Part shown: in pieces, positions 1-27,760 of the stretch | How the letters are laid out: every line of letters begins with the position of its first letter | Position numbering within the stretch: position 1 is the stretch's first letter | Virus record (IMG/VR): IMGVR_UViG_3300017917_002374 | Span: 186,001-250,000 of that record | Direction: 5' to 3' (one strand) | Origin: a virus | Length of the DNA stretch: 64,000 nt | The notes under the pieces: model-generated | Databases searched by the model: none | What the model saw: the letters and a program-made list of their open reading frames with translations, nothing else | What the model was told of the DNA's origin: nothing | Program-made: the position numbers and the translations under genes

Positions 1-1
1 T

Positions 2-109
2 GATACTAAATTATATCAGGTATGTGATAATCCAATAGACGACAGTTGTTGGCAACGTATAATTTATCAAGGTAATAAAGAACTATTGACACAATGGTCT
101 CAAAAATAA
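2..109 (+). CDS. C-terminal end of an unknown protein (cut by window start)
   Basis: An open frame runs in from the left edge and ends at the TAA at 107-109, giving 35 C-terminal residues that finish with ELLTQWSQK. It overlaps the start of the desaturase at 94 by 16 bases, the kind of overlap expected of two genes in one operon, which supports it being real. The piece is mostly polar, with two cysteines and two tryptophans. It is too short to assign a family or function. It could be part of the same lipid-related operon, but that rests on position only. Confidence 0.5.
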   Translation, partial: DTKLYQVCDNPIDDSCWQRIIYQGNKELLTQWSQK

Positions 110-882
110 TAAAACAAATATTCCACTGGACCCCTACCTGGGGTGCCTGGCTACCTGTGCAGTTTTTTGGTATATTGGCTATCTATAATATTTTGACTGG
201 TTCTACTTCGCCTTATTGGTGGATCTATACAATTATAGGATACTTTTTGTTTTCGGTTATAGGTATATCAATAGGATACCATAGATATCTAAGTCATAAA
301 AGTTTTAAAACAAGAAAAATTTACCAAAGAATCATGCTCTGGTGCGGCGTAATGGCTGCACAAGGCACTCCTATTTTTTGGGCTATCATACATCGAGGGT
401 ATCATCATAAGCACACCGATACAGATCTAGATCCTCATAGTCCAAGACATGGATTTTGGCATTCGTACCTTGGATGGTTATTTAAAATTAGACCTGTTAT
501 GAATACCAAATATGTATTAGATCTAATGAAAAATCAGGACGTATTTTTTGCCCATAAAAATTATTTTACTATATTGTGGATATCAAATATTTTGTTATTG
601 ACTATTAACGTAGATCTTTGGTTATATGGTGTGATGTTGCCTTGTTTTTTATCTTTCCATGCTTATGCTACCAACACTAGTATAAATCATTGCAAGGCAT
701 TAGGTTATCAGCGATATAAATTAAACAACGATAGTACTAATGTAATAGTACTTTGGCCTTTATTATTTGGTGATGCGTGGCACAATAATCACCATAATAG
801 AGCCGCTGATCCAAATTTTGGAAAAAGCACTTGGGAATTAGATCCTGCTTTTTGGATTATTAAGTTGATTCGTTCTGATTAA
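94..882 (+). CDS. membrane fatty acid desaturase (acyl-lipid/acyl-CoA delta-9 type)
   Basis: The 262-residue protein carries the three histidine boxes of the membrane-bound di-iron desaturase family: HRYLSH (H63, H68), HRGYHH (H100, H104, H105) and HNNHH (H230, H233, H234). Hydrophobic segments lie near residues 20-60, 80-95 and 155-190, as expected for an inner-membrane enzyme with the iron site on the cytoplasmic face. Family members use oxygen and an electron donor to place a double bond in an acyl chain. The substrate (CoA, lipid or ACP bound) cannot be read from sequence. The length is close to compact bacterial members and all iron ligands are present, so it is probably active. Its end overlaps the opposite-strand ACP gene by 23 bases. 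No late promoter box lies upstream, so expression from an earlier promoter outside the window is likely. Confidence 0.93.
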   Translation: MVSKIIKQIFHWTPTWGAWLPVQFFGILAIYNILTGSTSPYWWIYTIIGYFLFSVIGISIGYHRYLSHKSFKTRKIYQRIMLWCGVMAAQGTPIFWAIIHRGYHHKHTDTDLDPHSPRHGFWHSYLGWLFKIRPVMNTKYVLDLMKNQDVFFAHKNYFTILWISNILLLTINVDLWLYGVMLPCFLSFHAYATNTSINHCKALGYQRYKLNNDSTNVIVLWPLLFGDAWHNNHHNRAADPNFGKSTWELDPAFWIIKLIRSD

Positions 883-1120
883 GAATTTTTTCAAGTGCGT
901 CATGAAGACTTTGCAAAGTTTTTATTTCTGCGATTTCAGGGTACTCGTCAAGATTTATATCTATACCAAACTCTTCGTCACAGGCAATCAATAGCTCAGT
1001 TAGACTAAGACTATCAAGTCCTAAATCTTTTTTAAACTGTAAATTAAGATTGATATCAGTAACTTTCTTTTTATTAAAATGCTCACGTACAATTTTTAAC
1101 AAACGTTCTTCAATATTCAT
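860..1120 (-). CDS. acpP: acyl carrier protein
   Basis: This 86-residue acidic protein has the ACP fold signature. The phosphopantetheine attachment motif is GLDSLSLTELLIA, with Ser37 in the DSL triad, followed by the acidic helix II and an EFGIDI segment typical of ACPs. In the cell, ACP carries acyl chains as thioesters on its 4'-phosphopantetheine arm. It lies on the strand opposite to the two desaturases, its 3' end overlapping the first one. A GGAG stretch about 11 bases ahead of its ATG (minus strand, near 1133-1137) is the likely ribosome site. A phage ACP beside its own phosphopantetheinyl transferase suggests it is activated by the phage enzyme. It could also feed host acyl transfer reactions. 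Confidence 0.93.
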   Translation of the reverse strand: MNIEERLLKIVREHFNKKKVTDINLNLQFKKDLGLDSLSLTELLIACDEEFGIDINLDEYPEIAEIKTLQSLHDALEKILNQNEST

Positions 1121-1158
1121 AGAATGTGCGCTCCGTATATATTTACACAGTACAGGCC

Positions 1159-1959
1159 ATGTTTATAAATATTTTTATGACCTTTGCTAATCAATATAGA
1201 CTTTTTTATTTTATCATACTTTTGTCTGTCCCATTAAGTGTATTTGTAGCTATTCAAACATCTATTTGGTATTTGATAGGCAGTTATCTGTGGATGCGTA
1301 TCACAAGTTTTTTATTTGTTCAAATAGGTATGCACAGATACTTTGCTCACAATGGGTTTACTACCGATAAAAAGCGTCATATTTTTTTAACTTTAGGCAG
1401 TATTCTCACTGGTAATGGCAGTCCATTAACTTGGAGTACTCACCATTTACATCATCATAGACATAGCGATACCAATCTTGATTTACATAGTCCTGTAAAC
1501 GGTATCATTAATACTACATTTTTATGGCCTATAAGAGATGTTAGTTATTTTGAAAACGGAAAACAAATAGGAATTACGCCAAAAAGACTTGTTAAAGATA
1601 AATTACTAATGTTTATTCATCAACACTATTTCAAAATATGGATCTTCATTATTCTACTAAGTGGGTTTATTGACTGGAAAATTACTTTGTTCTTATTTTT
1701 AGCTCCTGCAGGATGGAGTGTACTACACGGAAACATAATTACCAACTTTATAAGTCACTGGAAGCTGCCAGGGTCTTATAGAAATTTTGATACTAACGAT
1801 AACAGTTACAATAACAAATGGATTCAGCTACTACAATTTGGCGAAGGTTTACACAATAATCATCACCATAACATGCGTGATTATAATCAAGCTGTACGAA
1901 AAGACGAATTTGATTTGGCCGCTTGGACTATTGATAAATTTTTTAAGGTCACTAAATGA
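1159..1959 (+). CDS. second membrane fatty acid desaturase
   Basis: The protein (266 residues from the ATG at 1159) has complete histidine boxes HRYFAH, HHLHHH and HNNHHH, so all likely di-iron ligands are present. Hydrophobic stretches near residues 10-55 and 155-190 indicate a membrane enzyme. It is clearly related to the desaturase at 94-882 but far from identical, so the pair may differ in substrate or double-bond position. The frame can be extended to a GTG at 1126, but that codon lies next to the ribosome site of the divergent ACP gene and lacks a good Shine-Dalgarno sequence, so ATG at 1159 is preferred. Its TGA overlaps the ATG of the AcpS gene (ATGA), implying coupled translation of desaturase and AcpS. 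Confidence 0.9.
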   Translation: MFINIFMTFANQYRLFYFIILLSVPLSVFVAIQTSIWYLIGSYLWMRITSFLFVQIGMHRYFAHNGFTTDKKRHIFLTLGSILTGNGSPLTWSTHHLHHHRHSDTNLDLHSPVNGIINTTFLWPIRDVSYFENGKQIGITPKRLVKDKLLMFIHQHYFKIWIFIILLSGFIDWKITLFLFLAPAGWSVLHGNIITNFISHWKLPGSYRNFDTNDNSYNNKWIQLLQFGEGLHNNHHHNMRDYNQAVRKDEFDLAAWTIDKFFKVTK

Positions 1960-2315
1960 TTATTGGCACAGGAATTGATTTGGTAACTATTTCAAGATTT
2001 AGAGAAATGCCTCGCAAAGAAAAATTAGCAGAAAAAATTCTTACAGAAATAGAATATAATGAATATACCAATTCTGACGATCAAGGATTATATCTAGCTA
2101 GAGCTTGGGCGGTTAAGGAAGCAGTGGCAAAAAGTTTTGGAACTGGTATCGCAGATGATGTGGTGTGGAAGAATATGCAACTGAGTAAAAATAAAAATGG
2201 TCAACCATTATTGCAATTAAAGAAGCCATTGATTCGTGAAGGCATACAATGTCATATCAGTATCAGTCACGATGGCGATAGTCTAATCGCCACCGCTGTT
2301 TTATCTACTTACTGA
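1956..2315 (+). CDS. acpS: holo-[acyl-carrier-protein] synthase (AcpS)
   Basis: The protein has 119 residues, close to the usual AcpS length. It opens with MIIGTGIDLVTISRF, containing the metal-binding aspartate (D8). It has the central motif ARAWAVKEAVAKSFGTGI with the second acidic ligand, and ends with HISISHDGDSLIATAVL. AcpS transfers the phosphopantetheine arm of coenzyme A to the serine of apo-ACP, giving active holo-ACP. The obvious partner is the ACP encoded 800 bases upstream. The start overlaps the desaturase stop as ATGA. The last 15 bases overlap the end of the convergent tail-fibre gene. A phage-borne AcpS implies either that the phage ACP is a poor substrate for the host enzyme or that rapid charging is needed. 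Confidence 0.93.
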   Translation: MIIGTGIDLVTISRFREMPRKEKLAEKILTEIEYNEYTNSDDQGLYLARAWAVKEAVAKSFGTGIADDVVWKNMQLSKNKNGQPLLQLKKPLIREGIQCHISISHDGDSLIATAVLSTY

Positions 2316-4235
2316 CACCACCGACATAACCAATTCTTCGTTGTCAGTATCTTTATTAACTAGGAGTCTGCCAATTACGTTAAATGCGTTGCACTCATCT
2401 ATGTGAGCTACTCTTGCACACCCGTTACCAGCAGATACTAGACGATCGCCTTTTGTTCCTTTACCAATAACTCTAACAGGAACTCTTCCTGTCATAGCAA
2501 TAGCAGGATGTGTATTGTCTTCGCCTGCGGCTTGATTCATAAGATAAGCGTAATTTTTACTCACTACACCTAGCACTTGTGTACTTGACTGTTCAAGTTC
2601 TTGTGTTACTTCTTGATCGCCACCAATACGAACCACAGTGCCTTCTACATATTCTGCATCAGCAGCAAATCGTTCTGCCAAGTCAGCATATGTGGCTTGC
2701 CATTTAGATCCAGCAGTTAGAGTCCAGGTTCCTTCAACTGATCCAGATGTTCCAACTGCTCCTGTGGTTAGTAGAGGAGTCTTCACGCTGGTATTCATGT
2801 CCACAGTGCGACCAAAAAAATCTCTAAATCTGAAACTTGAAGAACCCCAGTCATATGACAAAGTAGTGTCAGGTAACAAAGTGCCTTGCATGCTTCTAGT
2901 ACCATCACGTAACACAGCTGACGTTCCAAGACTGCTTAGACCATTTTGTAATGCTCTCACGTTTGAATACATACTAGCAGTTGCTGCCGGTGCGATACCA
3001 GTAGCACTGAGCACATTGCTATGTATTGCTGCAACGTTTGACCAAAGAGCCACAATGTTTGCTGCAATAGTTTGACTCGCTCCGCCGGAACCAGATGGTC
3101 CAGTGATTTGTGTCCATGGTGTAGTATTAGCAAATCCTGATAAAGGTCCTCCAACTATACCTAGTTCACTTTGAATCACACGAACATTACTGTAGACCAA
3201 GGCTGTATTTGCACTAAGTGTGTTGATAGTTGTGTTTAAGGTATTAACGTTGGCTGCAATAAATCCTTTGATCGCAGTATCGTTGGTATCAACATATCCT
3301 TTGGTTGCAATACCCAACACTGCTGTAGGATCTGCACTGACACTGACCAAGCCAGTGGTACGGTCAATGGTAATTGCATTGATGCTCAATCCACCTGCAT
3401 TGTCTGGCTTGGTTTTAATGATCAAACCATTACCACGTAACAAACTGGCTAAGTTTACGTTGTTTCCTGCTACGTTAATTTCAAAATAATCAACTGTACC
3501 AGCAGTTTCCTGTATGATCAAACCGTCTGGGTTTTGAATTTCCAACTGAGCTTCAATAACCGGGGTGGTTTTGGTCAAGTAACTGCTGGCAATAATACCA
3601 CCTAGATAGGCTGCATTGTTTGCATTCTCATTAAAGGTTAGTGCAGGAATTCTATCTGTTGCCAAATTAAAGCCAGGCTTAACTGTGGCAAACCCAGGCA
3701 GTGTGGAGTTTGGAGTAAACACTGCATCTTTGCTTAAAATTCCTAGCAGTTGGTTTTGCACAAAAAACTTAACCACCACGTGACTGATCAAACTGGTGTC
3801 TACAATGGTGTCAGCAATAGCGCCTGATGTGCCTGTAGTAGCTGTAAAGCTGGGTCCAATGATAATCCAGCTGGCGCCAGAATATACTTTTAACTGTTGA
3901 TTAACTGTATCAAACCAAAGGTCTCCTGCAATAGCATTTGATGGTGCATCACTGGAGCTCTGAGCACCGCTGATGGTTTTCCAGGTGCCAAACCTGTCAT
4001 ACACTTGCAGCAGTCTGGTGTCACTTTTCCACCAAAGCTGACCCACAAGAGGATTGCTTGGAGCACTTGAATTGGCAAAATTTTCAAGTAATCTTATGAA
4101 ATTTTCGTTTAGGAACGTGCCGTACCCAGCGTAGTTTTTACCAATCAGCGTCAAACTACTGGCCGTGCTATTGGTTTGCCCGTCTGCCACTGTGGCTAAG
4201 GGTGTTCCATCCGTTTTGATAATATTATAACTCAT
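2301..4235 (-). CDS. tail fibre/structural protein with ADLAE-type C-terminal domain
   Basis: The product has 644 residues. Residues 1-90 form a module (VTLxGKNYxGYGxFLNxNFxxLLENFA, then a GQLWW stretch) that recurs at the start of the 4270-7005 protein. A linker with VLGIATKGYVDTND, a motif common in phage fibre trunks, lies near residues 300-320. The C-terminal part (about 510-640) begins YADLAERFAADAEY and resembles the conserved tail-protein domain that often follows beta-helical fibres. It is loosely like the Peptidase_G2 intramolecular chaperone, though no catalytic assignment is possible. The gene is last in a long minus-strand unit but has its own late box at 4259-4265 and a good ribosome site (TAGGA), so it may be expressed alone. 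Likely role: distal fibre or host recognition. Confidence 0.8.
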   Translation of the reverse strand: MSYNIIKTDGTPLATVADGQTNSTASSLTLIGKNYAGYGTFLNENFIRLLENFANSSAPSNPLVGQLWWKSDTRLLQVYDRFGTWKTISGAQSSSDAPSNAIAGDLWFDTVNQQLKVYSGASWIIIGPSFTATTGTSGAIADTIVDTSLISHVVVKFFVQNQLLGILSKDAVFTPNSTLPGFATVKPGFNLATDRIPALTFNENANNAAYLGGIIASSYLTKTTPVIEAQLEIQNPDGLIIQETAGTVDYFEINVAGNNVNLASLLRGNGLIIKTKPDNAGGLSINAITIDRTTGLVSVSADPTAVLGIATKGYVDTNDTAIKGFIAANVNTLNTTINTLSANTALVYSNVRVIQSELGIVGGPLSGFANTTPWTQITGPSGSGGASQTIAANIVALWSNVAAIHSNVLSATGIAPAATASMYSNVRALQNGLSSLGTSAVLRDGTRSMQGTLLPDTTLSYDWGSSSFRFRDFFGRTVDMNTSVKTPLLTTGAVGTSGSVEGTWTLTAGSKWQATYADLAERFAADAEYVEGTVVRIGGDQEVTQELEQSSTQVLGVVSKNYAYLMNQAAGEDNTHPAIAMTGRVPVRVIGKGTKGDRLVSAGNGCARVAHIDECNAFNVIGRLLVNKDTDNEELVMSVVSVSR

Positions 4236-8893: not shown

Positions 8894-11800
8894 TTATGTT
8901 CCTGGTTCTAACCAAATACTTGATTGCGGTACTTGATTGCTTATGCTGGTTTGGTATGTTACAGAATTAGCGTCTCCACTAAAACCATTGTTCACAGTAA
9001 GATCAGAAAGTATAGTCAACACTGTGTCTCGTGTGATTTCTTGTGCCTGACTTGCATCACTAATTAGACTTCCTACTTCATGTACCAACGGAATACTGGT
9101 TCTTGAGGCACCTCTACGTATGTCTGTGATAGCATTTCTTCCTACATCTCTTCCAAAATAATTAATGCGTTCTGCATTGATCCAGATGGATCCAGGTTCA
9201 TTTAGAACTGCATTTGGTTCTGGCAGTTTTGTTACGTCTTCAACTATGATTTCTGTATCGTCGTATGCCAAACTAGAAGCCAACACGGTGGTATTTGCCT
9301 GACTCAATCTATAATAAACAGTTGGATTTTTATAATCTGTGAATATCTTATAAGCTATTACATTGCCATAATCCACATTACCGTTGATCACATTTGCAGT
9401 GAACACGTTCATTTGCAAACTGTCAATTACCTGTCCAGGCACAAGTTCTTCAGGTGCATGGCTACTGTATGTATCAATAAATTGACCACCATTGATAACA
9501 ATGTCTTCAGGTCTAGTACCAAGATTGGTATCAGTATATTCACTGCTAATAGTGGTATCAAGACTCAGTATATCCGAAGCAGTTTCAGTAAATGGTTGTC
9601 CAAATACTTTTACACCACTGTAGCTGGTTCCGGGTATTAGATCAGGAATATCCTTGGCCAAATGATTCAGCACACCGCCAATGGTGTAAAGTTTTGCACC
9701 AATCACGCTGGTGCCACCTTGAATTCCTAATGTGGTATTTGCTTCTAGAGTAAAGCCTGACGTGATTGCAACTGCATTAGCAAATACCAAGGTTCTAGAA
9801 TTTTTAGGCAAAGCCTGCGTGGTCACATACTGAGATTTTAATCCAGTAGTGTCAAACAGAGTAATCAAAGATCCTACAGGTATGTTTGCAGTGAACGGCT
9901 GACTGATTCGCACTGTGGTTGTGTTAACACTGATACTGTTGTAGTCAATGTTAAGATTACGTCCACTGCCTTCAGCATACTGCCAAGTAAATGCAGGGAA
10001 TCTACCAATCTGTTTGATTCTAGCACCTGTTGGTATACCAGTACCAGAAATGGTCCAGTTGGCTGCAACTTTGTCAAATCCTGACACATACACTGTGTTT
10101 TCGCCTCTTGACGCAGCTCTGCTGGTCACCAAAGTTTTGATTTCGTTGTTTGGCCCTGTAAAGGTCAATGTGGTTCCTACTGGAATGTTTGCAGTAAACA
10201 CATAAGCAAAGCTGATGCTTTGCCCTGTTCTTGAACTAAAGGATGTTGATGCAAATGCAACATTCACTGTCCATTCGTCTGTGTTAGAATCATAGTTAGC
10301 TGTGGTTACCACACTGTCCGCTGGCAGGTGTGTGGAAGTCACTGTCATGCCTGGAATTATCCAACCTATTAGTGCTGATCCATTAATAACAATTTCAGCT
10401 GTGGTTGCAGATACTACTGCATCCCATCTAGCCAGGGTTTCTGATGATGCACCAGCTCTTGATTCAGCAGATAGAATTGGATTGATGTTACCTAGATCAA
10501 TGTAGGCTTCGCTTTGTGATCCAGGATATCCCCAGATTGTGGTACTACCAGTTCCTGTCACAACAAATTTTTCATTATCCCATGCAATATCTGTGAGGTC
10601 AATTTTCTCTAAAGCACTTGGAGTCAGTGGACTAACAAAATTATCTGCGTTAAAATATCTAAAGTTCTTGTACACATAAATTCCGTGATCCACTACAGTT
10701 TTTCCAATAGTGTCGCTTGCAAGATCGGCAGTTCCAGTTTGCACCTCAAGCGGACTATCAATTCTGTTCCAAATCAGTGTACCAGCAGAACCAACTGCCA
10801 CAATGTATCTATCAAATGTGGTACTAACTGCTATACCATTGATTTGTTCTCCAGATACTCCGTCACCCTGGCCTCTTATTTCAGCTGGCACTGCCATGGA
10901 GATCCATGGATAAGATTGGTTGGTAAGTTTACCAGAATCGTAATTATAAGATTTGGCATATCCTTGAATCAAATCGTCCAATCGGTTGTAACTGGTGATA
11001 AACATGTTGCCGTTTACTCCGCCCACAATTACAAATCCCTGCTTCATTAAAGATTGGGTACCTGATGTAAAGTATCCAGAAGACTGCAAGTCTACAGTAT
11101 ACTGAGTACCATTGTTGTCGGTTAATGTGCCAAAATCAATCGCATGTACGGCTAAAAGTTGTCTTGGAAAGACAAAAATGTTTGGTTGAGGTTTAGCACT
11201 GTACCAGCCTTGTGCAACATCTTCTGACGTGTTGTACGGATTTACTAACACACTGTTTCCATTGCCCACAGCTACTACATACTTTGATCTTGTGGTAGCA
11301 GCAGATGCTACTCCAACAAAGTCTACTACCTGATTTGCATTTTGTTGCACAGCTCCTTCAGGATTGTTGGCATCAGGACTAAATTTAAATTCAGTAACTT
11401 GTTCTTTTGTCCAAGTCAGAGCATTTGTTGAAGTTAACAAACTGCCTTGATTGCCTACCACTACCCATACGTTGCCGTCAAAAAAGCATCCATCTCTAAG
11501 ATCAATATCGCTTTCTCTTACAGGTATGTAGGTCCAGGTTTCACCTGTTTGGCTTACTGCTAGCAGAGCTCTATTCCCGATTGCTAGATATTGATATTCG
11601 TGCAGATAAGAAACGCCGCCGGAGTGTAAAACCTTGTTCCACTCATTGTTCTGGCTAACGGCTGCTTCATTTGTATTACTTGCATCCAATCGTTGGCTAT
11701 CAGGACTGCTGTACAAAGTTGCAATATCAGGACTTCCTGGTTGATTGTATACTGCAATTCTGTCAATGGCATTATCAATATCAATTCCTGAAAGTTTCTG

Positions 11801-14800
11801 CACCACTGACGCATCATTAAACAGATTTAAGTCAAGCGTACCCGAGCCCAACACTGTTTTTAATACTTTGTATGCGTAGTTGTATCTTGGCAATGCTTGA
11901 TCTGGCAGGTTGTTAAAGAATACCGAAGTCACATCAGACACCACCACTATGTCATCTGTATGATAGGTGGTATACGGTTTCCATTTGGTTACTTTTGAAG
12001 CGTATGTTACTCTATCAAAACTTATCAAGGTTTTGATATTTCTAACAGTTTTGTTTACTGTACTAGACGAAACATCGCCGCCAATACTTGACAATACCAC
12101 ATAACCTTTAGCACCAAAACCGCCACCACCTTCAATGATTATACTAGGTTGACTTGTATAACCAGTACCTCTGCTGATTAGATCAATTTCAATCACGCTA
12201 CCGGTGCTGTTGTCAATAGTAGCGACCGCGGTGGCTCCTGTGCCACCACCGCCAATTATAAACACACTAGGAGCTCTTATGTATCCTTCACCTCCATTGA
12301 TCACAATCACAGACTCTAACACATATTTGTAATTAACTGACCAGCTAACAGCAAAACTATTGGCAATTAAATTTGCGTCTGTTGTGTTGTTAATATCAAG
12401 CACACGATAATTTCTTTGATCTATATCATAAATGCTTGACAAATCAAAATCAGTAGTATTGGCATTTGTGATATCAGTACCTTCGTAATCCAATAGATAA
12501 TTGCGCAGTTGAGTTCTGTATGGCTTGACTTCGTTAATGTAGTTTTCAAAATAATCTTGCTCGTCTCGGATGTATGACGAAAAAGTTTCTAGTTTACGTA
12601 TCTTGTGTACCACCGAAACCAAACTGGTCTTGATCAACCAATCTAGAGATCTTTGTTCGCTCAAGATATAGTTAACCAAAGTAAAGAACAGCTTGTTTAT
12701 CTGAATGGTATCAGTATCTGTAAAAATACCAGAAATTAACCCTTGCACAATGTTTCTTAGTTCTAGTGCAATGGTTTTGGCGAACCCAACGTTATCAAAA
12801 GGAGCGTTATCAAACCCAACAAGACTTAAATCATAATCGTACAATGCAGTACTGATTTGTATAGTGCCATTTTCTACTCCAACAATAGTTAACGACAAAT
12901 CTGCATTGGCCAAATACAATTCAAATTGTCCGTTGCCGTCATCAAGCACCTTAATTATATTGCCTGGTACCAAGTTCAACGTGACTATATCTTTAAATTC
13001 TTGAACAATATAATCAATTGTAGTTGTTTCATTATATCCACCGGCATACCAGTCGGCATAGAACCAATAACGACTGCTGTCATAACTTTGAATTCTTATC
13101 AAAGTCCAAACAGAATAATCAGAATCTGGAGTGTATTCGTATATGGTCCAATATGCTTCGTAATCAGCATCGGATCTTACCAGTACTTTATAACCTGCTT
13201 GCAGTTCTTCAGTTTGAACATACAGCAGTTCGTCCTTGGTATCAACTATAAGATTATAAAAACCAGCAGCATCTGGGGGTATCGGTTCTGCATTTTTTAA
13301 AATACTTAGATCTTTGTATTTTACAATCAGTTGTTCTTTGAGGAAACGATTTACGTAATCTACAAATACCTCAGTGGCCTTTATGGTATCTTTGATCATG
13401 CTCTGACGCGGACGAAGTGCAATACCATAACGTGTGCTCTCGCGTAGAGATAGATCAGGTATTACTTCACCAACAATATTTTCTCCTGCAAGACTATCAA
13501 TTAATTTATTAATATATTTCTCAGGAACCGGACTGAGCGCATTTCCTTGCTGAACTAACTCGTACTCGCTGTGCGCAATATTTTCATTTACAGTAATACC
13601 ATAGTCTATTTTGAAAATTATTTCGTCTGCTAGAAGATATCTATTGACGTTGTATAAACTAAATGCATTAGAACCAACCACTGCAAAGTAAGGCAAATTT
13701 TGACTTTTTGGATCTGCGATGATTTTTGCTAACGATGCTACACTGTTTGACCGTTTGGTTCTTACAATATCTACGGTGATTTTATTTTTTACCCAATAGT
13801 AATATTTGGTACGTATTAATCCTGACTGATTATCTAAAAAGTTAAATTCTACGTAGGCAGTATCGTCAGCATACAATGCTTCTCCGTCGCCAATTAAAGT
13901 TTGATATTCGCTAGGCAGTACAAAACTTTCAACCCATTCGCACACTTCAATTTCGCTTCCAGGGAACAATTCTCCCCAGAAAGTTGTTCTATATGATAGG
14001 TCGCCTTGTTCATAATCAATGTATCTACACTTGTCCAGATTCCACCAGGTTTTACCCACATGTAGATCATTCCAAACACTGTTTTCATCAAACGTTTGTG
14101 TGGTTCCGTTGCCCCTGTTGTAAACTGCCGGATCGTAGATAGTTTTATAATCTAGATCTTGGTCAGCTATTCCTAATATCTTGCCCTTAGCAGGATCAAA
14201 ATAATCAAGATCAGTGACAATGGTTTGAGTTTTACGATTGTACAAGAATCCTTGATTAATGTAATCAATATCAACTTTGTCTGTTCTTGATCTTAATTTG
14301 CTCCATCCTTTTTGTTCGTTAGGATTAATAAAAAGATGTAACAACCCTGCATTATCATTATAATAATCGCTCTTGGTGGCGCCCACGATGATCCAGTTGT
14401 TTCTTATTTCAATACCAGATCCAAAATTGTCATCAAAGAAAATTCTACTGTTCTGCAATACCTGATTGTATAGATATTGACTTGGTGCCTCTATGGTTTC
14501 GTTTGGAATAGGTAGATAATCGTAGATATAAACAGCACCAGAATTTTTCAAAAGATCAATAAATCTTGTGGTATCTTTATCAAACACAGTTGCTTGATTA
14601 TCAAAAGTGCTTTTCTTGAGAGTAACACCGCCCTCACTGGATACCACTAGGGTTTCACCTGTTACATTGTCCAGTTTGATAAGAGTTCCAAATCTTTCCG
14701 GAGCACCAAGCTCTGGGTGCCTAAATTCCTGTACTGGTGTATAGATAGAAAAACCTATGTCTTCTAGTGCTGTACCTGCGCCGGGTAATATGTTTATACT

Positions 14801-17800
14801 GTTTGATTTAGCGGTCGCATTGGCTAATATAGTAATTTGAGATGTTCCAATAGTTGACGACATTCTTGCCAACACTGTATTTGCGCCAGTTACTGTCACA
14901 GTAGGAGCAAAAGTATATCCGCTACCTCTGTTGGTAATTTCAAAACTGTCAATCGCCCCATTAGCGAACAGTGTGATGTTGCCCACCGTAGCGTTGATAC
15001 CATTTTCAATTTGATCTGGAGCGTCTATTACTATGGCCACATTAGATTCAAAATAACCTGTTCCTCTTAACGGAGTACCAAGATCAGATAAAAACACTAA
15101 ATTACTTACACCATCAGTACGAGCAAATATACCAGTTATTGCTCGGTTGTTAATATCTTTAGCAACCTTTTCACTGTTGCCATCGCTTTCCTGAAACACC
15201 ACAGGAATATCATTTATTCTGATATAATCGCCCTGTAGAACTGTAATATTGGCATTGTCTCCGACTTCTTTACCAAATACCAATGGCTTATTAACAAACC
15301 GGTATACTTTTCCATTGTAATAATCAACATCTCTATAGCCAGGTGCACCAACAAATATGTTTTTTCTTGATTGGTCTACTGCCACGCTTTGACCAAAATA
15401 ACTGTCTTTGACTATATCAGGATTCTCTATTTTTTGAATCAAACTAAATTGATTTACATCAACTTTTATTTTAGCTCCGCTTCGTGGAGCAGTTGTAAAT
15501 GTAATTGTGGTTTGTTCAGGTAAAACTACATAAGCAGTGGCTATATCTTCTAAATCAACCGGACCACCGCCTGATAAAACCACAGTTGGCACCGATGTAT
15601 ATCCAGAACCTGCATTAGTTACTATCACACCTGTTACTTTGCCTGTGGTAACATCAATACTAGCAGTAGCGGTAGCACCAGTACCGCCGCCTCCTGTAAT
15701 AACCACAGTTGGTGCACTGGTGTAATTTGCCCCACCATTAATAAGCACAATGTTGGAAATTCCAGATTGACCCACGGATCCTACTTCGTAATCAATTCCT
15801 TGAGAGAGTTCAAATCCGTCAATGGTAATTTTTGTAACTCCTGCAATGTCTCTTAAGGTTTTGTAAGTGTTGGTACTTCCTGAAACTGAGCCAACAAACA
15901 CTTGATATTCTCGGTCAAAGATATAGACTTTACCTACTCTAATAATATCAGTGTTATCATCAGTTGCCCCTGCTTCCGGAGCTCCAATTGCAACTTGATA
16001 TCCTTCTTTATCTATTGCCAAAGACCAGCCAAATTTTGCCACTCCTCTTGTGACTTTACGATTTTCAGTTCCTTGCAAAGCAAAAGCGCCGCCTACTAAT
16101 TTTTTATACAGTTGATATGATCCTGAGTTAGCCCCATCAGTGTTTAATACCTTGACGATGTCACCAACTTGATAACTACCAGCAACCATTGCACTATAAG
16201 TATCCACCGTGGCCGCCAATAATTGTCTTGCTACACTGTTAGATTGTACTCCAGCTTCCCACACAATTTGATCAGTTGGCTCAAGTGTGGTAACTAAAAT
16301 ATAATACTTGGTCAAAACATTTACTGCTAAAGTAGCTTCAGTAGCAAAGTCGTTGTTAAGAAAATTTAATGTTACTCCAGTTAGGCTGTAATCAACCCCC
16401 GGAATAAAAATTCTACCACTGGCTCCTACTACATTTATCTGCTCAATTTCCACCGGAGTAGTGGCCAAAACATAGGATGTTTGTAAAATTCCTCTAATTA
16501 CAGTTGGTGTGATAGCAGTTGTAGGATATATCTGCGACAGATATAAAAAGTTTTCATTTTGAATTGTACCAAAATTTCTAAAGGTTAATACGCCTGCTAT
16601 CACAGTATAATCAAAATCTGGTTCGTACAGTTTACCAGAATCCCCTACTACTTTTACTTCTGCGCTGGTTTTGACCAAAACGTAATTAGTAATATAACTG
16701 ATTTGATTGGTTATAACTTCTATTTTTTGTTGATTTGTTGGAGTGGATTTAGCAGCGTATACATAAACTTTGTTTGCTCCTGGAGCACCAACATATAACC
16801 AATTTTCATCATCTGATACAGCCAAAGCGTGTCCAAATCTATTATTACTATCAAGTTCGGCTGGATGTAATACCTGTTGAGAAATCCAATTAGACCCGGT
16901 ACTCTTAGATATTAACACTGCACCTTGTTGATCAAAACTTCCAGGTGCTCCTACATATCCATATCCACTGCCTAATTCTAACGAGAAACCAAATTCCTCC
17001 GCGTCAAGACCAAATGTGATTAGATTTTGAACTTGAGTAAAGCTACCTTCATCTAGCTGGAAAGTTCTTACTGCTCCTGTGGTTTTTACAATTTCTAATT
17101 CGCAGTCAATGCCGTTACCAATAGAATCAGTTATTATCACCGTGGGTTTATTTGTATAACCTTGTCCAAACTCTCTTAATTGCGCAATTGTAACAGATCC
17201 GTTAGTGACATTAATATTACCAGTAGCACCTGCTCCAGTACCCCCGGACACAGTAGAGAACTGTAATCTAGGAAAGCGATAATTTTGTCCTGTTGCTGCT
17301 ACTAGCAGAGTTTCTACACTGCTAGGAGCTAGTTTTACTCTGAGAATCGCTCCATGATTGGTGTTTGTGGTAATAAGATTTATTTCAGGTGGTGATGTAA
17401 ACCCAGTGCCTGGATTTAGAATAGTGCAAGAATTAATAGAACCTGTGCCAGCACCAGTGGTAATCAAGTTAACTATTATTTGTGCTCCAACACCGCCCCC
17501 GCCTACAACTTCTACAACCGGAGGAGTAACGAATCCACTTCCACCATTTATCACTTCTACGCTTGAAATAAATGTAGGGGCTAGTCTTGCCTGCACGTTA
17601 CCACCAGAACCGCGAGAGAAATTTAATGTAGCTTCACTATTAAAATTAATTAATATTGGCCCTGTTTCAACCGTGCCTGTTAAAGTATTGATAGCAGTAA
17701 TTCTTGTATTTTCTGGAATTACATTACCAGTACCATCGTCGCCTGTAACTATGTCATTTAAGAAAACTCTTGAATGTGTAAAAGTAAGAGGTTGTGAATT

Positions 17801-20800
17801 AACAATAGACCATGTGATACTGTCAGTTAATGTGATTGTGTTGCTTGAGTAATTGATACCTGCAACTACTGCTGATGCAACTGTGTTTCCTGTGCCATCA
17901 TTGCCTGTGACAACATCTCCTACCCAAATATCATTAGAGTTTGTTAATACCACACTCTTAGAAGATATCACATTAGCAGATACTGATTTAGTTACACTCA
18001 CACTGAGTGAGGATATAGGAATAGTATTGCTTTGGTAGGTGTTTGACGATGTAGTAGCAACATTAAAATCAACAATCTCAATATTAGGTAACAGATCGTA
18101 ATTGTTTCCTGACGCTGTAAGTCTTGCGGTCAACAGCGTGCCTGATTCAGTATCTAATGTAGCAGTAACATTTTTGCCATTTTCTAGATCAGGGGCGCTA
18201 AATGTTGCTTCTGGAACTTCGTATAAAAATCCAGGATTTATAACTCTAATTCCAGAAACACCACCGTCTGAATAATCTTTGGCACCGCTGATTACCAGTC
18301 GTTGATCATTATTAATAGCAATAGCTTCGCCGTACCCTTGCTGAGACTGAGCTTCACCTTCTCTCAAAGGTAAAATTTTATCAAAAGTCCAACCTGCATT
18401 TTTTTCAAACACAGCCCACAGGTTGTTTCCTATATCATTGTCAATCCAAATCTTGTCTTTGTCTCTCCATCCATGTCTTGGCACAAAATCTACCAGTTGA
18501 TTTATTCTTGAGAATCTTACTGATACCAATGTAAGTAACACGCCAGTACCGTCAACAAATTGTTGTGATCGCAATCTCTGTAAATTTTGATATCCTTCAA
18601 CCACAAATTGATCGTTATTAGTTACTGCTGTTACTTGGTAGAAACCATTGTAATCAATATCAAAGTTTTTTACAACTATAACAGTGCCTGCTACCAAGCC
18701 GTGCGGAACATTGGTGGTAACAGTTATTCTGTTGTCCAGACCAATTTGAAACTGGTTTATCAAAACATCAGTTTCGTTAACTCTATAAACATTCCAATCT
18801 TTGTTGAAGTCTCTGGCTACCCAGATTTTAAATCCGGCGCCTATAATGTTTACTAGATCTGCATAACTGGCATAATCTGTGATATCAAAAATTGTGGCGT
18901 CAACATCATCAAGTCTAGGATACCCAGCGGTTACTGCATCAGATAATCTAGTTTTAACATCCTGTCTTAAAGAAATAATGTTTTTGTCAGTGAGATTATC
19001 TGGTGCATAATACAACTGACTAATTTCCACATTTATCAATCCCTCTTGATCAACATCAGTTTTGTTTTTTAATACCAAAGTTGATGGGTTGTTCTTTAAA
19101 TCTTGTTCAAGCAGTTGAAACTCAACTGCTTGATCGCTGCCCAGAGCACCATAATCTCCTACACGCAGAGCCCATTCTTCATACAATTCAATATTACTAA
19201 AAAGATTATTAAATCGTGCAGTGGTCAGCGCATCAATTGCATTGATAGAACCTTTTTGTTTAATGTATCCTTGATAGAACTTGGTCTGACTCACGTTATC
19301 AAGTTTGAAATCTTGAAAATAAGATCTTTCTCTGAAGCCAGTTATTCCTGAACTTAAACTATCAAGATCAGCATCTGCTACAGTGTCATCAATGTTATAG
19401 ATACTGTTGAACTTTTCAGCGTTGTAAGAAAAGTTTGGCAATAGTCCTGTCTTGATTTTTGCTTTATCAATATTACTCCAGTAAGTAAAATCAAATTCTG
19501 TTGAAGCAGGTACTTCGCTGATTGCAAAATAAAACTTTTCTTTGAAACTAATCAATGCGCTTTTTCTATAATTTCTACCAGGTTGCCATTCATCAATGAT
19601 ATCGTTATTGTAAACAAATCCACCAGGATTCAATTGTCCAGTCCAGTTGTTGGTTTTGTTTCCTATTAGTCGTAAACGGTACTGTCTGTTTCCAAGTTCA
19701 GGTTGGTAGACAATGTCTCCAAACACTGTACTATTATCCATTAATAACACATGTTCGTATTGTACAAGGTTAAAGACTGCTAGTCCAATAGTATGTCCAA
19801 ATACTGAGGTGATTTGAAAAACGTTATCATCCCGTAACACTGAAAACTGACTGTTCTTGATTATGTTAAAGTTCTGATCAAGAATTTTACTTGCGCTTAT
19901 AGAATTAACCACATGGTCAACTACACCAGCAGTGTTGATAATTTTAATGCTGTTAAACACCGGACTCAATACCAACAGATTACCACTGGCCCATCCTTGT
20001 TGACTCCATACAAGGAATTCTTGCGCACTTAGAATCCAGGTTTGTTTTGTTTCTAGATCAGGATTAAAAGTATCAAAAATTAAACCTTGCGCAGTTAGAT
20101 ACCTACCATAACTGATCAGGAAATCTACTACCTGTTGCTTTGTGGCAAATTCAAATCCATAAGGAACTATCACTTTGGTGAATTCAAAATCTCTATAAAC
20201 AATCGCAGTTTCCTCAATAGCATCTATAGAGAATACATTATTATTTCGCTTGCTAGGAATTATTGTAAAATATGGTTGCTCTAGATCGTATCCGCGCACA
20301 GCAAAGCCAGTAGTAGTTCTTTCAATTACCACTGCACTATAGATAATTTTTTCTACAGGAGCGGATTTGTTTAAGAAAATTTTATAGTTTTCTGGAGGTA
20401 AAATTATACTACTTGCATTACTCACAGGAGAACTTTGATCTGCAATCACTGTGAGGAAATTATTGTCGCTGTAGCCAGCCATTTTATAACTGAGCTTTAC
20501 TTCAACGTTTCTCACAAGATTATTAATCTTGGCCGTTCCGTCTATGGCTTTGTTTGTGAACCAATCTCTTACCCAGTTGATGTATCCTGCAGTTAGAGTA
20601 ACTACTCCTGAGTTAAGTCCATCGTCAGGAATTGTAAAATTATCTTTGTTAACTCTTTGTTTGGTATCTGCTAGAACCAACTGATCAATATTACTATCGC
20701 GTAGATATCCAACTGTGTTCATGAGAGACCCAAAGTAAAATGCTGGTCTACTCAGTGCTATGGCTATTTGAAGAGCATACGGATATTCGCTGCTTCTTCT

Positions 20801-23800
20801 CCAGGCAGTTTCAACCGGACCTTGATCCCCAATTGCCCAGCTAGAGCTCAGTCGCGTTGCATCAAAACTCACCGGAGCAAATTTTTCTGGGCTTTTTAGT
20901 TGCCCATATTCGTCAACTGGAATATATGTTGACAGTCCTGGTCTAGCGAATCTAGTATCAATACCTTGTCTTGTGCCTTCTGCAATAAAGCCTAGCTCTA
21001 GATCGTCCCACAGTACAGTATTTGATCCTGTGTACGGTGCCGGGCCATATCTATTTTCCCACCAAGAAGGCTTTTCGTAAAATCCCAGCATTTCCCAAGG
21101 AGCAAGATGAGGTCTATCTGTGTCAAAGAAATAGAAATATATTCCTCTCCAGAAGCCTGGTAAAAATTCGTCATCATTATCTTTTAAGAATTTGTAGTTC
21201 CAGGTCCATGCATTGTTACTTTGAAAAGTATCATTACTAGAGTAATTAACTGAATTAACTCCGACCCAACGCAGAAAATTTCTTGATAACAGTTGGTTAA
21301 ACTCTGCTAGAGAATAATTTATTTTTCTAAATTTACCAGGAATACTATCAATTATGTCAAGTATGGTATTGGTATATCGTACCTTGATATTGTTGTAAAT
21401 TCTTAATTCAAGTTCTAGTAATAAATCGTCTCTATAATCTCCAAATGTTGGCATGATACTACCGTCATGTCCTTGGATAACCTGTCTTGGAGTTTGATAA
21501 CTATCATCAATAAAAATGCTTGGCACATAACTAGGATACAACCCCAACTTACTAGGTGTTTCGGGAACATAACTTCCTACTGTGGTTGGTCTGTCAATTA
21601 ATTCAATGTATGACGTATAGGTCAACGTCACTGTTTCAGACAAGTCAATTGCAGCAATGTTTTGATTAAAAGTAAAATCTTTATTTTTTGCTAGTTGTCT
21701 ATAAGTGCCTGTAGCAGTATCTCCTAAGTATACTAATACACTGCGTCTGCTTGGCACTGTGTCATTGTACAAACTTGGAATTTGATATCTTAGTTGTCTG
21801 ATATCAACTATAGGAATTCTGCTGTTTGTAAAGGCTTTGCCATAAGGAACCATGTCGCTATCATACCAAGGCATGGTAGTATTTTTTCCTAGATTCACAA
21901 CTTCCATTATTTTATCAACTGCTTCAGGAATGTTACCAACGTTTATTTCAACTTTTAGAGATTGATCCAAAAATTTATTTTTAAACTTGGTGTACTCTTT
22001 TTGAGCGTATTCAATGGCTTCAATAAATTCAAAGCCTTGATCACCAAATGCCAGTCCACTGTACAATGCTGGCGAAGCATGTTGTAAAATACAGCCAGTC
22101 CAATCTTTAATTTCAAGATCTCTAAGATTATTTTTGGCTAAAATATTTCCAGACAACCCATAATTATTTTGACTCATTGCAATTAGATGCTGTCTTAACT
22201 GACCTAGAGTCAATGTATTAAAGTTTTTATTTTCGGTGTTTAAATCAATGTTTAACGGCAGTTGATAGTAGCCTAGCTCCGAAACACTAGAACTATAAAT
22301 TAAAATATCAACTTTACTAGGCGGATCAAAACTTAATTCATCTTGATTAATTACTACCACATCCAGCTGTTCATATTTGGTAACTGTGTACAAAGACTCA
22401 GCTAATAGTCTATTGTCAACATAAACTTTCAAATAAGGAATAGTTTCGCTGGCATTAGGATTAATATCTATCTGAAAATAATTTGTATTGCCATCAAAAA
22501 ATTTTGTAATAATCTGATACTGTTTGGTTTTTTCTGCCGTTTTTGTCCAAATGTTTCTATATACAAATCCACTGTCTGTTTTTTGTTTGAATAAAAATTG
22601 ATTTAATGGCAACGATGTAGATAGTTTGTTTTTAATAAAAGAAAAACTATCAGTGTCGTAGTTGTTTGCAAAAACGATATCTCCAACATTTTGGAAATTT
22701 TTATAACTTAATGCAAATCCTAGTTCTGCATCTCTCTGACCAGTTCCTTCTAGATAAGAAAATATCTTTGTTCCTTCAAATTTAGATCCAAGAAATGCAG
22801 TGGTGTCTGAAATAGAAGATCCGTCGTCATCAAACAGATCAAACAAAGGTGCTTGATTGTAAGATGTTTTTTGCTGTGCAGGGATCCATTCTTCTCCGGT
22901 ATACCAATACTGGTTATAAGTATTCACACCAGTTTGTCTTTGTTTTATTGCATTTTGTCCTGTAGTTGGCAGTGCCACAATAACTGTATCGTCACTTTCA
23001 TAAGTGTCAGGAGTAATGTCGTCAGTATTAATTACTCTTGATCGTGCATCTGTTATAAAAGCTATGGCCTTAGTAGCATAATTAAATGTCACAAGAAGCC
23101 CAGCAAACTCTGGTTGAGCATGATTTAATATTACATAATATTCAAATTCAGCAGCGCCAATTTGAATAGTGTCTACTCCAATCACTTTTGGTACAATTGA
23201 GCCAGTAGTTACACCGTTACCGGATGCATTGTACTCGCTGGTTACTGTCATTCCAACAATAATACCGTCTAGGTCAGATACTAATAGTCGGGCTGTACCA
23301 ACACTGGATGCTACCTTTGTTACTGCGGGCACAGCCGGCTCAACTGTTATTAGAGGAGCTGAAGTGTATTCTGCACCAACATTGTCAACAGAAATTGTTT
23401 GAATTTTACTTGGATTGAGATTAGTAGTTGCTGTGGTTGCAGTTGATATCTGTAATGCCAAACCTGCTGCTGCATTTATTCTTCTGTTTAATGTGATTTC
23501 ATTACTTACAGCATTTACAGTTTCAATTAACAATCCGTTACCAAGCGAGTCTGCAAGGTCGTTTACCAACATGCCTTTCTGTAGTCCTGTAACATCTTCA
23601 AGCACAATTGAAAAGGTATTGTTCACCGGTTGTTTAATAAAATAATTGCTTTTGAAGTCTCCAACAGGATTATTATCGCCAAAGAATCCTTCAACAAAAA
23701 ATCTATTTTTGGCTGTAATAAAGATTTTTGTACCTGCTGGTAGGTCAATTGATTCACCGTCAGAATCTAAACTGTCAATAGTACCATTAAGAGTGATTTC

Positions 23801-26800
23801 GTACTGAGTTTCAAAATTGCTATCAAGAACTTCTTGTACTCCTGCTACTTTGAGAATATTGGCCTGTGTTAATGCCACATCCATATAGTATTGATACAAA
23901 TTAGAATTTGGTCCAGTGGTGTCTGTACTTACATAAGGAACTCTTGAAAAATCTCTGTAGCTAACATTTTCGTTTTCCTCAACTACTAGAAAAACTAGCC
24001 AGTCTTCTTTAACATACGTGGCTTCGGGGACATTAGTCACAATCAATTTGTTACTTTGATATGTTGTTACAGATGCTGTGATTAACTCAACACTGGTAAT
24101 AACCTCAGTGGTTAGATCTTTGTTGAGTTGATATCCAGATCCAGCCGAAACTACCTTAAAATATTCAAGCACATTATCATTAAGCACCACTTCAGCGGTG
24201 GCTGCCAAAACACCCGAAGGAGAAATAGTAATAGATGGAATGGAAGTATAGCCTGCACCAGGATCAGTCACAGCTATTGCATAAACTTCGCTACTGTCTG
24301 TATAAACTGCGGCTTGAGCTTGTCTTCCTACAAATGACACTATAGTACCAACTTTTACACTCACTGGTCTTGATAGCAGAATACGATTTTCGTCTAACAA
24401 CTGTACAACTTTTATCTCTGGCTCAATTGTAAATGCGGCTGCTACTCCTCCAGTAATGTATGCAGTGTAATTTCTGCCATCTAATGTGACAGAACGTGCT
24501 TCATCTGCGTACAAGCGAAGGGTGAAAGGATCAATAACTTCAACCCAATAGGTGTTGTTATTCATCTCAACTGTGCCCAGTACACCTCTGATAGTGATCT
24601 CGTCACCATCAATTAAATTGTGAGCATCTGCAGTAGTAAGAACTACAGGATTATCAATTTCAATATTTGCAATATCAAGTGGAATTGAACCACCAGTAAT
24701 GTACATGTCAATTCCGGCCACATTACTGTTGTCAACTGTGATGGTCGTGCTGTTTCTAGATGTAGAGACTACAGTTGCAGTTTGCACCCCAGGTGGTTTA
24801 AAAATAAAATTACGATTGTTTTGAACTTGTACTAGGTCTGATACTTTTACAACCAGATTACCAAAAATATCTTCAATAGTGGCGTTCACAGGTACACCAT
24901 CGCCATACATTCTATAGCCAGTAGCAAGTCCTGTGACAGAGTTCAAAGATACCAATTGAGTGCTAAAAACTGCGCTGTTTCCATACACAGCTTTAAGAGT
25001 CACTGCTGTTGCTTCGGCTGCTTTAAAAACCAACTGTACATCGTTTGACAGTGATGCCGGACTAGAAATTAAAATTGAACTTCCGCCTAGCACATTATTA
25101 ATCACTGTACCTCCAGTGATCCCGCTGCCGTAGATCAGCTGTCCGGCTTCTAGACCAGTGGTGTTATTGAGCACAATGATATTGCTCGTAAAAGTAGCAG
25201 TGTTTCCGTAGACTGTTAATTTTTCTAAGCTATTAGGGCTGCTAATGTTAGCTGTGGCCATGGTCCCAATACCAGAACCGCCATTGGTAATACGCACATA
25301 GTCAACATGTTTGTACGTAGAATATACAGGATCAATACGGGCATCTTGTGTGTTGGGAGTATCAATCTTGACAAACGGGTCTGCAACAAAATTTAATCCT
25401 CTGTAGTTAACCGTGACATTAGCTACGCTAGTAGACTCCATTATTACTGTGCCTGTAGCTTGTACTGCACCTATGCTGGGAACTGGTCTAGAGAAAGTTA
25501 CTGCGGGTACAAAATCGTACAAAGGCGCTACCGAATAATCTACTCCTCTAGAAACAATTTCGTAATTGCTTATAGATCCGTTTTCAATAGTAACCGTGAT
25601 TTCTGCCCCGGTTCCTGCACCACCACCAACAAATCCAACTTCTGGGGTGCTTCTATAGTTAATTCCAACATTACTAAAAACTAAATCTTGTATTTCTCCA
25701 GTCACAGGATCCACAATAAGAGTAGCTGCGGCAGGAAAATCTGGATTTCCGCCTATAAAAGTAACTGTGGTATCTTCTATTATTTGAGTAGAAGATACTG
25801 TGTACGTAGGCAATAATTCAGTACTCTCGCTGACTAAATGAATCTGTGTTCTATCCGCAATAGAAATAAATTCTACTTTAAAAATTTTGTTTCTGACTTC
25901 AGGATTCTTGTCAGCAGCAAAAATTATTCTTGTTCCGTCAGTTAAAGGACGTGATACATTATTAGGCAAAGTAATCACATAGGTCTCTTTACCTTCAACT
26001 TCTTTGAATGCATCTGTAATTGTGTAATCTAAAACGTCAACTGGTGCTTTGGCTCGTTGTCCATAATTGAATAGATACAAGTCTGATTCAAATTCAATAA
26101 TTGGACGTATTGCTCTTATTGGAGTCTCAAGCAACAAATTTGGATTGTCATTATATTGTGCTGCCAACTCAATTAATTCACTATGAAACCAACGGTTGCT
26201 TCTGCTCCAGGCATTTAGATCTCTACTTCCTCTTGACACAGTAATATAATCAGGAGTAGTTAGATTGTCATTCAATGCATATTCCTCTGGTACTGTAAGA
26301 TTGCCAGTTCCAACCAGTCGTATGCTTTTGCCAACACCTTCAACAATATAAACACTGTCTGCGTATTCGCTAGGAAATGCAGTATTATCAAATCGTATTT
26401 TTAATCCATTGGTAAATCTTACACCATTTGGACTTGTATAATTTTTTCTACCAAGAATCACCCCTTCAACATCTAGACGTGCATCAGTAGGTTCAATAAG
26501 TTTAATAACACCACCATAACTGTCGCTATTTGCATCTTGATAGTATAGTTCGGTAAGAGGCGATGTAATTTGCTTTACTCTTTCCCAATAGCCTTCTGCA
26601 TTTTTTATAAATTCAACTCCGGCATTATTAGTACCGCCGCTGATATAAACTTTTTCGTTAATGTTTACAGACTGTAGATGTTCTAGCTGTACTAGTCCAT
26701 TATTAGTGCCTATGTTTGTTATTCTAATACGAAAAATATCGTATCTTTTTGATAATGGCAATAGATCACCTTGTTCGTATCCGCTTTCAACAAAAGGTGC

Positions 26801-27760
26801 TCCTTGGTCGTACTTGTCAAAATCAAAAGTGCCTTTGTCTGTCCAATCAGTATCGTTTTCTGATCTTGAAAGGAATATTAAGGTTGATCCATCTAATGAT
26901 CTAGCAGTAGCACCATCAATGCCGCCTGACTGTCTAATTATTGTAAGCAGATGATTTTGAACTCTAGAGTATGATAAATCCGTAGCATAATTTACTGTGG
27001 CTATTCTTGATGCGAATCGTTCGGCATCCTGTGCATTTGATGCTGGAACGGAAAATACAACTACACCGTTGTCTTCACCATTGTTTTCAACTCCAAAAAC
27101 TTCTCTTGACAAAGCTTCGGCTTCGGTTGATCTAGTACCAGTTTTTCCTGGCTCGGTTTGAATCCAAAAACCATTGCCTGGTTGGTTTACTGTGAATCTA
27201 TAGGTATTGCCTTTGACCAGAGTTAAAACTGGATTAGGATCTCTGCCATCACTAGAAAGTGTATAAGCTGTTTGTTTTGAATCACGAGCTACGGAAAAAT
27301 TTAATACTTCCGTAATGGCACTGGCACTTACTGCCACTTCTGGTGGTCCGTCAGGCAACCAATAATATTGATTAAAGTTAACAAACTTATCAAAGTCAAA
27401 CAGACCATTGAAATTGTAACTTTCGTTTTCAAAAAGTCTGCTGTGGTCATTGGTTAGACCACCGTAGTAATTAATTTTTTGAATTAAATCAATGTAGCTG
27501 GAATAGAATTCTACATTTTTGTTTTGATCCTGTACTACGAAACTGGCCTCAAGTTGATAATTCTGTCTGTCTTGTGTGGGTTCTTCTATGTACGAATCAT
27601 TATACTTAAAAGTTGGAGCAAATTTACGTCCTACAAATCCGTCAATTTTTTTTAAGTCAGGTTCTGAAATCAACTGATCAACAGTTGCAGCCAAAAACTT
27701 TTTGTTGGTGTCGGATCTAAATATTTCTGGTAGTAAATTAATACTTTTAATTGAGGCCAT
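8894..27760 (-). CDS. giant virion structural protein (6288 residues), baseplate-associated
   Basis: One uninterrupted frame of 18.9 kb sits directly after gp6, the slot of gp7 to gp10 in T4. The N-terminus ([20 protein letters not shown] and about 150 residues) resembles large structural proteins of marine T4-like phages. Seven FG-GAP-like motifs with a VGAPG or VAIGAPE core occur near residues 3140, 3595, 3645, 3915, 4125, 4360 and 4450, as in integrin-type beta-propellers. BNR/Ycf48-like blades ([18 protein letters not shown] and similar) lie around 5390-5670. At least twelve short GSGYTSxPTVxIxGGGGTGA modules are scattered from residue 700 to 5220. No signal peptide or catalytic motif is evident. 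It probably forms a very large baseplate wedge or fibre element that contacts the host. A TTAAATA box and a GAGAGAAC ribosome site precede it. Confidence 0.88.
12100..12300 (-). repeat. GxGYTxxPxVxIxGGGGTGA double repeat in the giant protein
   Basis: Two adjacent copies are encoded here: [20 protein letters not shown] followed by TGA, and [20 protein letters not shown]. Equivalent pairs occur at about 15570-15740, 17390-17560 and 25500-25740. The unit is about 35 residues, strand-turn-strand followed by a glycine-rich turn. Confidence 0.7.
14370..18350 (-). other. FG-GAP beta-propeller segment of the giant protein
   Basis: Seven FG-GAP-like motifs are spread across this stretch, for example [40 protein letters not shown] and [20 protein letters not shown]. 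Seven is the blade number of an integrin-alpha propeller. Long insertions of glycine-rich and beta modules separate some blades by 200-450 residues, so the propeller would be discontinuous. This is read from motifs, not from a structure. Confidence 0.65.

Follow-up and report, generated by a model that had tools for sequence, protein, structure and literature searches.

Divergent virus contigs of several other metagenomes share a core of genes for a holo-ACP synthase (AcpS), a GNAT-fold protein called GNATx here, a membrane fatty-acid desaturase, and a convergent acyl carrier protein (ACP). In the phage analysed here the core belongs to a cluster of about 20 kb. It is probable, if only narrowly, that this cluster is a phage-encoded fatty-acyl biosynthesis system, in which the ACP is charged, an acyl chain is modified and transferred to an acceptor, and a specialised N-acylated product is made. 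Gene content, synteny, folds, and purifying selection were found directly. From them this reading deduces which steps are catalysed and in what order, that the linkage is N-acyl, and what is made.

Genomic context of the cluster

The window, i.e. the whole stretch of 64,000 nucleotides that was analysed, covers positions 186001-250000 of a virus record that is 354,959 bases long (G000 in the coordinates below). The record contains T4-like portal, major head protein, and baseplate wedge genes and is that of a T4-like jumbo phage. A low-GC island of approximately 20.5 kb extends from about 167.8 to 188.3 kb of the record, with a GC content of 0.34 versus about 0.43 on both sides. Its right edge coincides exactly with the AcpS stop codon, beside a tail-fibre-like gene. 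An earlier note on this DNA described a stand-alone cassette of four genes, which are in fact only the right end of the larger cluster. Its description of a phage-borne, lipid-related set holds: ACP, AcpS, and the desaturases form a real co-conserved unit.

The rest of the island contains glycosyltransferase-like genes, two radical-SAM enzymes, a QueC-like gene, two more desaturases, an SDR, a fatty-acid hydroxylase, and a 304-aa asparagine-synthetase-like ligase with an SGGxxSE loop. Several putative 2-oxoglutarate oxygenases or GNATs were assigned by eye, with no profile. The model of the 304-aa PP-loop family (18-sequence alignment) has a pLDDT of 91, and its fold matches asparagine, beta-lactam, and carbapenam synthetases. 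The whole record has five desaturases, one ACP, and one AcpS; the fifth desaturase (G000:122383-122976) is outside the window and far from the island. GTP-cyclohydrolase-, QueD-, and QueE-like genes, recognised by eye at G000:135382-142830, possibly serve deazapurine synthesis. Between the tail-fibre-like and baseplate genes, a single ORF of 6288 codons occupies window positions 8894-27760 on the minus strand. The T4 late-promoter motif TATAAATA is not enriched in the window or its left flank.

A desaturase is found near the island site in only one of 80 loci related through the neighbouring virion gene, so the cluster is accessory cargo at a variable site. In another contig (L079:10001-20597, compared with G000:166940-173341) the glycosyltransferase and radical-SAM genes from the left end of the island have homologues that lie next to the tail-fibre genes. 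This arrangement differs from that of the window's phage, which suggests rearrangement at the site.

The four genes at the left end of the window

The four open reading frames reported earlier within 2.3 kb are intact. Desaturase A (window 94..882, plus strand) overlaps GNATx by 16 bases and has the His boxes HRYLSH/HRGYHH/HNNHH. The ACP gene (860..1120, minus strand) is convergent with desaturase A, with a 23-base overlap, and the DSL serine of its phosphopantetheine site is S37. Desaturase B (1126..1959, plus strand; start GTG 1126 or ATG 1159) represents a distinct orthologous group with the His boxes HRYFAH/HHLHHH/HNNHH. AcpS (1956..2315, plus strand), at the right edge of the low-GC island, overlaps desaturase B by 4 bases; its metal ligands D8 and E55 are invariant across the viral relatives and E. 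coli AcpS. The tail-fibre-like virion protein (2301..4235, minus strand) marks the boundary and is outside the cluster, with GC back to 0.43.

All Pfam matches exceed the curated cut-offs: FA_desaturase (2.7e-11 and 6.6e-14), PP-binding (1.2e-8), and ACPS (7.9e-16). AcpS also scores 78.8 bits against NCBIfam acpS TIGR00516 (cut-off 59.8). The catalytic signatures that had been read from the sequence, namely two desaturases with three His boxes, the DSL serine of ACP, and both metal ligands of AcpS, are all retained.

In a phylogenetic tree the four island desaturases fall into four different virus groups, each with orthologues in other viruses. The viral desaturases form several virus-only groups and the 40 sampled cellular relatives form one, in a quick tree with long branches for which the cellular sequences had been picked by similarity to one group. 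All three His boxes are present in 114 of 115 viral desaturases. The nearest cellular desaturases found are only 28-36% identical, and recent transfer from a known bacterium was rejected on these grounds.

GNATx, a candidate acyltransferase

The earlier remark that no acyltransferase is seen here is not supported, as a GNAT-fold gene lies directly to the left of desaturase A. The 181-aa acyltransferase-like protein GNATx is encoded at G000:185564-186109 (plus strand). Its gene starts 437 bases left of the window, and its last 109 bases (1..109) are within it. Judging by its predicted structure, GNATx is likely the acyltransferase that was thought to be missing. The AlphaFold model, made with an alignment of six viral homologues, has a pLDDT of 87 and a pTM of 0.85. 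Foldseek searches against the PDB returned GNAT acyltransferases and acetyltransferases (probability 1.00) with a TM-score of about 0.5, so the match to the fold is a distant one. The full protein has no PHROG or NCBIfam match and its first 145 residues have no Pfam match; this includes the families of the N-acyl amino acid synthase FeeM and of LuxI, which are acyl-ACP-using enzymes with the GNAT fold.

Among 27 aligned GNATx sequences the invariant residues are N36, Y37, R77, R81, W83, S122, R123, C154, D159, C162, W163, Q164, and G170. The CoA pyrophosphate-binding loop Q/RxxGxG/A is absent in 26 of the 27, and the single pattern match is not conserved. No histidine reaches 90% conservation. 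Acyl-ACP may be the donor of GNATx by analogy with ApxIC, a GNAT-like member of an acyl-ACP-using family that lacks the CoA-contacting elements (PMC8339906). In contrast to GNATx, the HlyC/ApxIC family has a conserved catalytic histidine (PMC8339906). A GNATx scan of GTDB genomes found none. At L078:9989-11167, the GNATx reading frame stays open through a long C-terminal extension, which resembles a second GNAT domain.

Conservation of the cluster in other viruses

Relatives were gathered through AcpS, desaturase, and GNATx scans; a single-sequence scan for close relatives of the ACP found none. In contig L049 the right half of the island is completely retained, beside the same tail fibre. The near-identical records L052-L054 keep the ligase, GNATx, desaturase A, ACP, and AcpS, with desaturase B absent. 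In L050 and L051, AcpS, GNATx, a desaturase, and ACP are found in a different context.

The GNATx scan of viral contigs yielded 24 loci. After dereplication, a desaturase directly follows GNATx in 21 of 25 loci, and a convergent ACP is present in 10 of the 25. All 16 AcpS-bearing records (of 31) contain an ACP. In the dereplicated set ACP occurs in 12/12 records with AcpS versus 3/15 others (Fisher p = 4e-5), a statistic that describes linkage inside the sample because the records were selected by cluster genes. In roughly half of the lineages with GNATx and a desaturase, neither ACP nor AcpS is on the contig, so a dedicated carrier is optional; some contigs are fragments. On the GNATx tree the presence of AcpS maps to one change (support 86/79, modest), for which one loss or one gain would suffice.

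Pairwise dN/dS is 0.03-0.18 for the GNATx, AcpS, desaturase, ACP, and QueC-like genes, and the core genes are under purifying selection. The pair formed by the window and L049 was left out of this analysis due to saturated dS.

AcpS genes are uncommon in phages, as stated previously: a pattern search, which gives a lower bound, found at least 35 loci among 2.9 million viral contigs. AcpS and KAS matches in a phage-record collection, mostly unannotated and attributed to phages of cultured bacteria, may be host DNA and were not counted. In some viral contigs (L256 and L259-L265, e.g. L264:3581-3967) neither an ACP nor a desaturase was recognised around the AcpS gene. In two of these, L260 and L264, AcpS adjoins an SprT-like gene, and ClpX-, IF3-, and Hsp20-like genes are close.

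Fatty-acid-synthase genes in relatives

Several relatives encode further parts of a fatty-acid synthase. According to Pfam searches, L075 has KAS, FabZ, two ACPs, AcpS, and a Rieske protein, and L077 and L060 have KAS and FabZ. A KAS scan of viral contigs found 10 (about nine distinct), all in the order FabZ-ACP2-KAS and all with AcpS and GNATx on the same contig. The FabZ of these relatives scores 146 bits against a curated NCBIfam cut-off of 113. Their KAS is a full-length FabF match below the equivalog cut-off and keeps Cys148, His288, Lys318, and His323. KAS was found in 11 of 32 records tested and FabA/FabZ in 6 of 31, and the window's record has neither.

Searched with Pfam families, the 355 kb record of the window's phage has no match to KAS, FabA/Z, AMP-binding (PF00501), FabD-type acyltransferase, or Fer2. 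Without a KAS, FabA/Z, AMP-ligase, FabD-type enzyme, or 2Fe-2S ferredoxin of its own, the phage would need the host for acyl chains and electrons.

One 52.6 kb viral contig (L015) contains ten desaturase matches together with KAS, AcpS, and ACP. A second fatty-acid gene set was found in viral contigs L267-L276 (e.g. L269:8608-15005). It consists of a FabI-like enoyl-ACP reductase, an AcpS-like gene overlapping a desaturase, 2OG-oxygenase-like genes, and a FabF-like ketosynthase.

Proposed pathway and alternatives

In the proposed pathway AcpS would add phosphopantetheine to the phage's own ACP, as its family membership and conserved catalytic residues suggest. The acyl chain would come from the host type II fatty-acid synthase in the window's phage. 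In relatives it could be elongated by the cluster KAS, FabZ, the second ACP, and possibly an SDR. The several desaturase types, the fatty-acid hydroxylase, and other iron oxygenases would then modify the chain, and GNATx would take it off the carrier and transfer it to an acceptor, which is most likely an amine. The ligases resembling asparagine and beta-lactam synthetases and the radical-SAM enzymes may build or decorate this acceptor, and oxygenases may also shape it. The outcome would be an N-acylated, specialised lipid or lipo-amino-acid, which alters the envelope of the infected cell or acts as a small effector. The block of fat-chemistry genes, together with the fatty-acid-synthase genes of relatives, points to a special lipid that these viruses produce or remodel in infected cells.

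A broader version of this reading is plausible, though somewhat short of probable: some jumbo phages would have a near-complete dedicated acyl pathway for a specialised lipid of their own, and the window's phage would have a host-dependent version without the elongation genes. It counts AcpS, two ACPs, a ketosynthase, a dehydratase, several desaturases, a carrier-linked GNAT acyltransferase, and amide ligases. In most cases the metabolic genes of a phage are lone enzymes that slightly shift host pathways. If the pathway is real, phages would be able to conduct fatty-acyl synthesis partly apart from the host and to produce their own lipids, and the long-noted viral desaturases are tied to a possible carrier-bound substrate. 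The cluster comprises about ten genes that could be co-expressed to find the product.

Another explanation, rather unlikely but the strongest of the alternatives, is bulk membrane remodelling, in line with the earlier note. The desaturases would unsaturate host phospholipids, and ACP and AcpS would just raise the supply of acyl-ACP. This is the role proposed for viral membrane desaturases (PMC7300359). The desaturases here do resemble acyl-CoA desaturases: desaturase A is SCD-like, with 4zyo and 4ymk as its nearest solved relatives, and the use of acyl-CoA by the nearest solved relatives is a counterpoint to a carrier-bound substrate. However, one or two desaturases would be enough for this purpose, and ACP with AcpS, GNATx, the asparagine-synthetase-like ligases, the hydroxylase, the multiple oxygenases, and the KAS and FabZ of relatives are left unexplained. 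A specialised acyl product fits better than bulk desaturation with the combination of ACP and AcpS, GNATx, the ligase, four desaturase types, and these KAS and FabZ genes. Bulk membrane fluidisation is possible but accounts for less of the cluster.

The desaturases might also act successively on an ACP-bound chain and give a highly unsaturated, reactive product, as in polyyne or alkyne pathways. Such clusters pair a dedicated ACP with three desaturases (PMC8406139), and the four desaturase types of the island and the relative with ten desaturase matches plus AcpS, ACP, and KAS are reminiscent of them. This explanation is nevertheless improbable, as the record has no match (PF00501) to a fatty acyl-AMP ligase, the enzyme that defines such clusters, and inspection of the surroundings of the core showed neither a rubredoxin nor a thioesterase.

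Protein lipidation, in which GNATx would use acyl-ACP to acylate a host protein or one of the phage (e.g. the tail fibre next to it), appears slightly less probable still. The GNAT fold without a CoA loop and the precedent of ApxIC (PMC8339906) agree with it, as does the proximity of tail-fibre genes to the cluster, which is seen in four records besides that of the window's phage. Tail fibres were not seen beside the cluster in other lineages, however, GNATx has no invariant counterpart of the catalytic histidine of HlyC/ApxIC (PMC8339906), and the asparagine-synthetase-like ligases and oxygenases would have no role.

An assembly chimera or bacterial contamination, suggested by the sharp GC step at both island edges and in part foreseen earlier as a misassembled contig join, has next to no probability, given that the AcpS/tail-fibre junction recurs in independent contigs from other metagenome datasets (L049, L052-L054), the gene pairs have low dN/dS, virion genes lie on both flanks in a record with T4-like structural genes, GNATx was not found in the GTDB genome collection, and the tree sets the viral desaturases apart from the cellular ones. 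The preferred reading remains a specialised N-acylated product.

Comparison with known systems

Roitman and colleagues reportedly described lipid desaturases of cyanophages in 2018. Desaturases are known from viruses and, as a rarity, ACPs from phages; no description of AcpS with ACP, a ketosynthase, and FabZ in a phage was found. Literature text searches returned no paper on such a cluster, with most subscription papers and preprints outside their coverage.

Virus-encoded desaturases (vFAD; PMC7300359) are likewise phage-borne membrane enzymes with three His boxes and similarity to an acyl-CoA desaturase (4zyo). Here, in contrast, four desaturases share one island with ACP, AcpS, a GNAT-fold protein, a hydroxylase, and ligases; ACP is unmentioned in that 2020 paper. 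ACPs are described as rare in phages (PMC7760394). The Eneladusvirus jumbo phages also encode a small ACP, which is described beside a spanin-like gene in passages that mention no AcpS or desaturases. The window's ACP matches PHROG 5934.

GNATx shares with acyl-ACP-using GNAT-fold enzymes (FeeM and LuxI, as well as HlyC/ApxIC of PMC8339906) the fold, the lack of a canonical CoA loop, and a nearby ACP gene, but differs in having no profile match and in lacking the invariant histidine of HlyC. Polyyne and alkyne clusters (JamABC plus two desaturases, a thioesterase, and a rubredoxin; PMC8406139) also combine several desaturases with a dedicated ACP. Unlike them, the phage cluster has no fatty acyl-AMP ligase and has AcpS, a GNAT-fold protein, and asparagine-synthetase-like ligases. 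With bacterial type II fatty acid synthase it shares AcpS and an ACP with the phosphopantetheine serine, and in relatives also a FabF-like KAS and FabZ. Around the core, no gene of the FabD or FabH type for initiation was recognised. The window's phage differs from that system in lacking KAS and FabZ, and its relatives differ in carrying many extra tailoring genes.
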